Assembly: GCA_019429005.1 (NCBI GenBank)
Contig: JAHYJR010000002.1
Location: 104,852 to 153,733, forward strand
DNA: 48,882 bases
DNA from: Nanobdellati archaeon
GTDB lineage: Archaea > EX4484-52 > GLR71
Direction of reading: 5' to 3'
The translations under genes were made by a program, and so were the position numbers. The notes beneath the pieces are model-generated. The model was not told where the DNA came from and did no database searches. It worked only from the letters and a program-made list of their open reading frames with translations. The stretch's first letter is position 1. The number at the start of each line of letters is the position of its first letter. Of the stretch, positions 46,978 through 47,290 are shown piece by piece.

Positions 46978-47140
46978 GGGGTCATGGTGTAACCTGGTAG
47001 CACAGTAGGCTCCAATCATGCATAAATTGCATTTATGGAGCGATGAGGGCGTAAAAACCCAATGATATGGCGAATCTGTGTATAATCAAAAAAATGAGAG
47101 ATACCTACTAATTGGGGTTCAAATCCCTATGACCCCACCA
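46978..47140 (+). tRNA. tRNA-Trp (CCA) with intron, 3' CCA encoded
   Basis: Acceptor GGGGTCA/TGACCCC, D stem GTGT/GCAC, anticodon stem GTAGG/CCTAC with loop CTCCAA+A (anticodon CCA), T arm TGGGG-TTCAAAT-CCCTA, discriminator A and genomic CCA (47138-47140). An 87-nt intron splits the anticodon loop between positions 37 and 38. A TATA-like box at 46923-46936 lies upstream. The tRNA-Gly gene follows after six bases, so both are probably one transcript. Confidence 0.93.
47016..47102 (+). other. Intron of tRNA-Trp (37/38), relaxed BHB
   Basis: Bulge A36-A37/T on the 5' side and AT/A38 on the 3' side enclose a central helix CTCC/AGAG with one C-A mismatch, flanked by GTAGG/CCTAC and CAT/ATG. Inside, a hairpin CATAAA...TTTATG is followed by TGGAG, the complement of the anticodon loop CTCCA, and by GCGATGA, which resembles box C. 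A C/D guide for the tRNA, as in haloarchaeal tRNA-Trp introns, is possible but no clean D box is seen. Confidence 0.8.
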
Positions 47141-47146
47141 AAATAT

Positions 47147-47290
47147 GCAGTCTTAGTCTAGCGGTATGACACGGGCCTTCCAAGCCTGTAACCCGGGTTC
47201 AAATCAACTTTAATCAGTCGATACGCGGTTGATATTTATTTTCGGATATGTATCAATATGGATATTGTTGTGAAAATCCCGGAGACTGCA
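47147..47290 (+). tRNA. tRNA-Gly (TCC) with T-loop intron
   Basis: Acceptor GCAGTCT/AGACTGC, D arm with GGTA loop, anticodon stem CGGGC/GCCTG with loop CTTCCAA (anticodon TCC), T stem CCGGG/CCCGG with loop TTCAAAT once a 73-nt insert is removed. Discriminator A; CCA is not encoded. The insert lies within the T-loop, so common tRNA finders may miss the gene. Confidence 0.92.
47204..47276 (+). other. Intron of tRNA-Gly at position 59/60, canonical BHB
   Basis: A complete bulge-helix-bulge: T-stem GGG/CCC, 3-nt bulge AAT (47275-47277), 4-bp central helix TTCA/TGAA (47198-47201 with 47271-47274), 3-nt bulge AAT (47202-47204), then helix CAAC/GTTG (47205-47208 with 47267-47270). Cutting after the second bulge base on each side removes 73 nt and restores loop TTCAAAT. 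Confidence 0.9.

Follow-up and report, generated by a model that had tools for sequence, protein, structure and literature searches.

Positions 47147-47290 of a 48,882-nucleotide stretch of DNA from a Nanobdellati archaeon (the window) raise two questions: do they encode a working tRNA-Gly(UCC) whose T-loop is interrupted by an intron, and, if so, what kind of endonuclease would remove it? The original prediction placed an intron with a perfect bulge-helix-bulge (BHB) motif at tRNA position 59/60, next to an intron-bearing tRNA-Trp, in a host of DPANN type. It held that non-canonical intron positions are frequent mainly in Thermoproteales and require a splicing endonuclease (EndA) of broad specificity, perhaps epsilon2 or heteromeric. 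The anatomy of the locus, its neighbour and the DPANN-type host are all confirmed here, and what had been expected of the enzyme and of the distribution of such introns is revised. We consider it highly probable that the segment is a functional, apparently single-copy tRNA-Gly(UCC) gene with a BHB intron at 59/60 that is cut by an alpha4-like EndA.

A tRNA-Gly gene interrupted in its T-loop

A mature tRNA is obtained from this gene only after excision of 73 nucleotides (Table 1). Pairing of the acceptor strands (GCAGTCT, 47147-47153, with AGACTGC, 47283-47289) and of the T-stem strands (CCGGG with CCCGG at 47278-47282) requires that they be taken out. The resulting 71-mer, in which GGGTTCAAA is predicted to be joined to TCCCGG, is identified by ARAGORN as tRNA-Gly(tcc) with a score of 123.35, among the highest in the genome, and has all four stems (a 7-bp acceptor stem, a D-arm, an anticodon arm and a 5-bp T-stem) and a 7-nt T-loop. 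ARAGORN detects no tRNA at all in either the unspliced gene or the whole window. At the gathering score, Rfam reports only the upstream tRNA-Trp in the window, the 5' part of tRNA-Gly(UCC) reaching 21.5 bits in a whole-genome search, which is under the cut-off. The exons have a G+C content of 56%, versus 30% for the intron, and the CCA end is not encoded.

No second Gly(UCC) gene was found in the 1.08-Mb assembly (15 contigs totalling 1,078,986 bases, with a completeness of 93.55%, so that an additional copy could be missing), the remaining glycine genes having the anticodons GCC and CCC. As GGA accounts for 166 of the 722 glycine codons in the open reading frames of the window and Gly(UCC) was found only once, this gene is probably needed.

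Table 1. Coordinates of the tRNA-Gly(UCC) gene, its splice motif, the neighbouring tRNA-Trp gene and endA (window positions unless a contig is named; G000, genome of the window)
Feature	Position	Strand	Basis
tRNA-Trp(CCA), canonical 37/38 intron at 47016-47102 (87 nt), CCA encoded	46978-47139	+	Rfam 46.5 bits; spliced ARAGORN 123.4
tRNA-Gly(UCC) 5' exon: acceptor 5' strand, D-arm, anticodon arm (TCC), T-stem 5' strand, T-loop 54-59	47147-47203	+	sequence; ARAGORN on spliced form
Outer helix of BHB, 5' strand: T-stem CCGGG, 5 bp with 47278-47282	47193-47197	+	sequence; BHB test
Central helix of BHB, 5' strand: TTCA (T54-A57), 4/4 with intron TGAA at 47271-47274	47198-47201	+	sequence; BHB test
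5' bulge AA^T, 5' splice site between 47203 and 47204	47202-47204	+	BHB test
Intron, 73 nt, tRNA position 59/60, 30% G+C as in the window	47204-47276	+	ARAGORN splicing; BHB; shuffling
Inner helix of BHB, 5' strand: CAAC, 4/4 with GTTG at 47267-47270	47205-47208	+	BHB test; covariation in the phylum
3' bulge AA^T, 3' splice site between 47276 and 47277	47275-47277	+	BHB test
tRNA-Gly(UCC) 3' exon: T-loop position 60, T-stem 3' strand, acceptor 3' strand, discriminator A	47277-47290	+	sequence; ARAGORN on spliced form
endA, 187 aa	L001:1474-2037 = G000:C11:246126-246686	-	single gene in genome

The tRNA-Trp gene lies 7 nt upstream, a gap short enough to suggest that the two genes are probably co-transcribed. 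The BHB of its own intron is imperfect, and that intron may harbour a box C/D-like guide. The CCA end is encoded by tRNA-Trp and not by the adjoining tRNA-Gly.

A strict bulge-helix-bulge motif fixes the splice sites

The junction forms a strict BHB with a 5-3-4-3-4 layout, with AAT in both bulges, as foreseen, and complete pairing of both 4-bp helices. It has the features of archaeal BHB tRNA introns (a 4-bp central helix, 3-nt bulges on opposite strands and a cut after the second bulge base), and the intron at 59/60 joins that class at a position already listed and not new: 59/60 is among the non-canonical BHB positions of Thermoproteales (PMC4090602; PMC4033280, itself citing Fujishima et al. 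2010).

With the boundaries as given, both helices are fully paired in 0.075% of 20,000 shuffled introns. The number of BHB motifs taken alone was rejected as evidence, there being 26 strict matches in the window versus 27 in the reversed control. Because a bare BHB carries little weight, given its chance frequency in A+T-rich DNA, the argument relies on its agreement with the tRNA boundaries and on relatives. A direct repeat, AAATC, is present at both junctions and makes the excision point ambiguous by exon sequence alone; the ambiguity is resolved at 59/60 because the BHB fixes the cut. The 4-bp central helix is absent from the minimum-free-energy fold, and the centroid structure keeps the T-stem and the inner helix.

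Other interrupted tRNA genes in the same genome

A census of the genome's tRNA genes, combining Rfam matches with a BHB-splicing test, revealed further T-loop introns with a strict motif in tRNA-Asp(GUC) (62 nt), tRNA-Glu(UUC) (161 nt) and tRNA-Lys(CUU) (75 nt), and one with a relaxed motif in tRNA-Ala(UGC). The tRNA-Glu(UUC) gene has two introns, one of 40 nt at the canonical site and the 161-nt one at 59/60; the full gene (contig C11, about 279470-279806, minus strand) is missed by both ARAGORN and the Rfam tRNA model. The D-arm also holds introns: tRNA-Ser(GCU) (C11, around 68593) combines a D-loop intron with a canonical one, and tRNA-Leu(UAA) (C13, around 4526) has an apparent D-arm intron whose ends are not fixed. 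Canonical introns are found in the Trp, Tyr, Met, Ile(UAU), Arg(UCU), Arg(UCG), Ser(UGA), Leu(CAA) and Gly(CCC) genes, and those of Leu(CAA) and Ser(UGA) are, like the T-loop intron of Ala(UGC), relaxed. The intron-bearing tRNA-Ile with anticodon UAU (C13, 44508-44629) replaces the usual modified CAU tRNA for AUA.

T-loop introns across the phylum

Introns at 59/60 were sought in 34 genomes of the same DPANN phylum (EX4484-52 in GTDB), all from one order, with a pattern consisting of the outer triplet and the central helix, the inner helix being left out. This pattern gave 62 matches in 24 of the 34 genomes (a control pattern gave 2), about 50 of which splice into full tRNAs, distributed over 22 genomes and some 18 anticodons and including tRNAs for Glu, Arg, Gly, Leu, His, Lys, Ser, Cys, Ala, Thr, Asp and Tyr. 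Across 43 T-loop introns the inner helix covaries through many pair types, with 137 of 172 cells paired versus 54-78 of 172 after a shift of the partner strand by 1 to 3 bases, which argues strongly for selection on the BHB.

The tRNA-Gly(UCC) gene itself is interrupted in three relatives (G004, G010 and G011) and uninterrupted in other members, including two (G016 and G021) from the genus of G010, so that gain or loss of this intron must have been recent. The expansion is not simply a trait of all relatives, as the same search in 28 Nanohaloarchaeota genomes gave 3 matches and no spliced tRNA. A small third phylum has real strict 59/60 introns, in tRNA-Glu and tRNA-Arg.

A view that confines non-canonical positions mainly to Thermoproteales is consequently too narrow, given how commonly T-loops are interrupted in this DPANN phylum and how many non-canonical introns some Asgard archaea have (PMC11291895). 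We found no description in open-licence papers of the phylum-wide T-loop expansion, nor of the lysine-lacking EndA discussed below.

Probable spread of the introns between tRNA genes

In G010, the introns of Gly(UCC), Glu(UUC), Cys, Leu(CAG) and Leu(CAA) are alike, at 72-100% for Gly/Glu/Cys/Leu; two Arg introns are 92-97% alike in both G006 and G007, and the Gly and Glu introns of G004 are 87% alike. The occurrence of near-identical introns in different tRNA genes of one genome implies intron transposition, which has been reported on a large scale for Thermoproteales (PMC4033280; PMC4090602). Four of the five T-loop introns of the window's own genome were compared and have no likeness to one another; transposition is thus seen in relatives only, and we claim no recent event here.

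T-loop introns would then have spread from tRNA to tRNA within the phylum. Their focus on the T-loop is likely due to the near-universal TTCRA, which supplies the 5' side of the central helix and lets one intron fit many tRNAs; a form ending in TGAAAA should fit the T-loop of almost any tRNA. As to how they moved, gene conversion or recombination between T-arms at the DNA level, with no RNA intermediate, has in our estimate an even chance of being correct, and it is compatible with the functional explanation of the gene. The near-identical introns of different tRNAs lie between T-arm sequences that are themselves short, near-identical stretches, and the proposal made for Thermoproteales is also a DNA-level one (PMC4090602). 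However, the homologous flanks span only about 10-15 nt, which is very short, and the same pattern would result if an excised intron were reverse-spliced and the cDNA then recombined; the data do not tell the two routes apart.

A single short EndA

The genome encodes one EndA and one RtcB, as expected of a genome with archaeal BHB introns. The endA gene directly adjoins those for tRNA-Phe and tRNA-Asn on the same strand (C11, 246126-246876). Genomes of the phylum have a single EndA wherever any was found, and a search for a beta subunit in the window's genome (93.6% complete) matched only EndA itself and chance matches. The AlphaFold2 model of the protein (pLDDT 88.9) has the M. jannaschii alpha4 enzyme 1a79 as its best PDB match (Foldseek E-value 6.6e-16, TM 0.81/0.89). 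EndA thus has the single short subunit and M. jannaschii-like fold of alpha4 enzymes; it lacks the three-unit chain of the epsilon2 type, and no separate beta subunit as in the (alpha-beta)2 type was found.

With these components, the T54-A57 segment of the precursor would base-pair near the 3' end of the intron, the single short alpha4-like EndA, presumably as a homotetramer, would cut at both AA^T bulges (most likely on a joint Trp-Gly transcript, at each BHB), and RtcB would then join the exons. Recognition by EndA would rest on the BHB alone, because the elbow between D-loop and T-loop cannot form before splicing. We infer from sequence that tRNA-Gly(UCC) is indeed spliced.

Two other readings of the locus bear on this scheme. 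An insertion may have killed this tRNA-Gly copy while another, intact one reads GGA, and a second copy could indeed be missing from an assembly of this completeness; but stems and loops are intact after excision, giving one of the best tRNA scores in the genome, the splice motif is perfect, phylum-wide and covarying, and the other glycine genes read GCC and CCC only, which makes a pseudogene highly improbable. The requirement for a broad-specificity heteromeric or epsilon2 enzyme with an ASL/CSL-type loop, put forward in the original prediction, is a less remote alternative that we nevertheless consider unlikely. The loop at the ASL/CSL site is 14 residues long (G to L), as in ARMAN-2 and against 10 in M. 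jannaschii, and contains the motif K35-[I/Y/W/F]-[I/V], with Lys35 conserved in 84 of the 85 distinct rows and adjoining a residue that is often aromatic. Some introns of the genome (Leu-CAA, Ser-UGA and Ala-UGC) are also relaxed, a hint that EndA may have some tolerance. On the other hand, the single endA gene is of alpha size and accounts for the beta-family matches. A position-by-position comparison of the loops, in which Thr159-Tyr160-Lys161 of ARMAN-2 faces the motif above, led us to reject identity with an ARMAN-type ASL, Tyr160-Lys161 not being conserved. T-loop introns are found as well in a lineage with a short-loop EndA, namely the third phylum, whose enzyme is short, lacks the long loop and keeps the catalytic lysine.

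Nor does a non-canonical position in itself call for broad specificity, which is documented for relaxed motifs and not for non-canonical positions as such (PMC6379350), whereas the motif of tRNA-Gly(UCC) is strict. Since alpha4 enzymes prefer canonical BHB motifs (PMC4033280), they could in principle cut a strict BHB wherever it is located, and an epsilon2 or heteromeric enzyme is not implied.

Loss of the catalytic lysine

The catalytic Tyr116 and His133 are present in this EndA, and the catalytic lysine is replaced by Ala164, so that the Tyr-His-Lys triad of alpha4 enzymes is incomplete. The literature describes all three residues as conserved in each of the four EndA types (PMC6379350). The site of the lost lysine (Lys282 of ARMAN-2) stands after a conserved arginine (R163) and is occupied by Ala, Ser or Thr in 109 of 109 sequences (85 distinct) of a DPANN group comprising EX4484-52-like archaea, Nanohaloarchaeota and Aenigmatarchaeota (L001, L044-L072 and L133-L212), 80 of which were fetched with conserved group peptides as bait; control archaea keep the lysine in nearly all cases. 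An enzyme without a lysine regarded as catalytic cannot be taken as self-evidently active.

All 85 distinct rows of the group have a lysine, Lys128, in an insertion between Tyr116 and His133, and we hypothesize that it may replace the lost one. A tentative and rather doubtful extension of this idea is that T-loop-specialised mobile introns are expanding in this DPANN phylum and are processed by a single-subunit EndA whose lysine has been relocated to Lys128; this form, which the phylum shares with Nanohaloarchaeota and Aenigmatarchaeota, would be a fifth functional archaeal EndA type.

Comparison with known systems

The introns resemble those of Thermoproteales in their splice motif, the use of 59/60, the presence of several introns per tRNA and the similarity of introns in different tRNAs, but they belong to a DPANN branch, concentrate on one site in the T-loop and have TGAAAAT at the 3' junction. 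Atabeyarchaeia and Freyarchaeia (PMC11291895) likewise have many non-canonical introns outside Crenarchaeota; those hosts are Asgard archaea, and the comparison is at the level of intron abundance.

Unlike the crenarchaeal (alpha-beta)2 enzyme with its CSL, the EndA described here is single-subunit. It has in common with ARMAN-2 (Ca. Micrarchaeum; PMC12397907) a DPANN-type host with non-canonical introns, the length of the ASL-site loop and a loop inserted between the catalytic Tyr and His, as in the epsilon2 EndA. It differs from that enzyme in being one 187-aa domain instead of a three-unit 395-aa chain, in lacking Tyr160-Lys161 and in having Ala for the catalytic lysine. The alpha4 EndA of Methanocaldococcus jannaschii (1a79) is close in size, fold and the catalytic Tyr and His, but it is only 30% identical, its ASL/CSL loop is 4 residues shorter, its Lys156 corresponds to Ala164 and it lacks the 7-residue, lysine-bearing insertion between Tyr and His.

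Implications

The points of interest are the phylum-wide expansion of T-loop introns and the unusual EndA. The former adds to Thermoproteales a further clear example of similar introns distributed over different tRNA genes, and it serves as a warning that T-loop-interrupted genes in DPANN genomes escape ARAGORN and the general Rfam tRNA model. According to the published rule, rich sets of non-canonical introns go with heteromeric or epsilon2 enzymes bearing special loops. In the present case such sets occur across an entire DPANN phylum together with one short EndA that lacks the conserved lysine. This combination allows a direct test of two ideas, namely that intron diversity is linked to enzyme type and that the lysine is needed.
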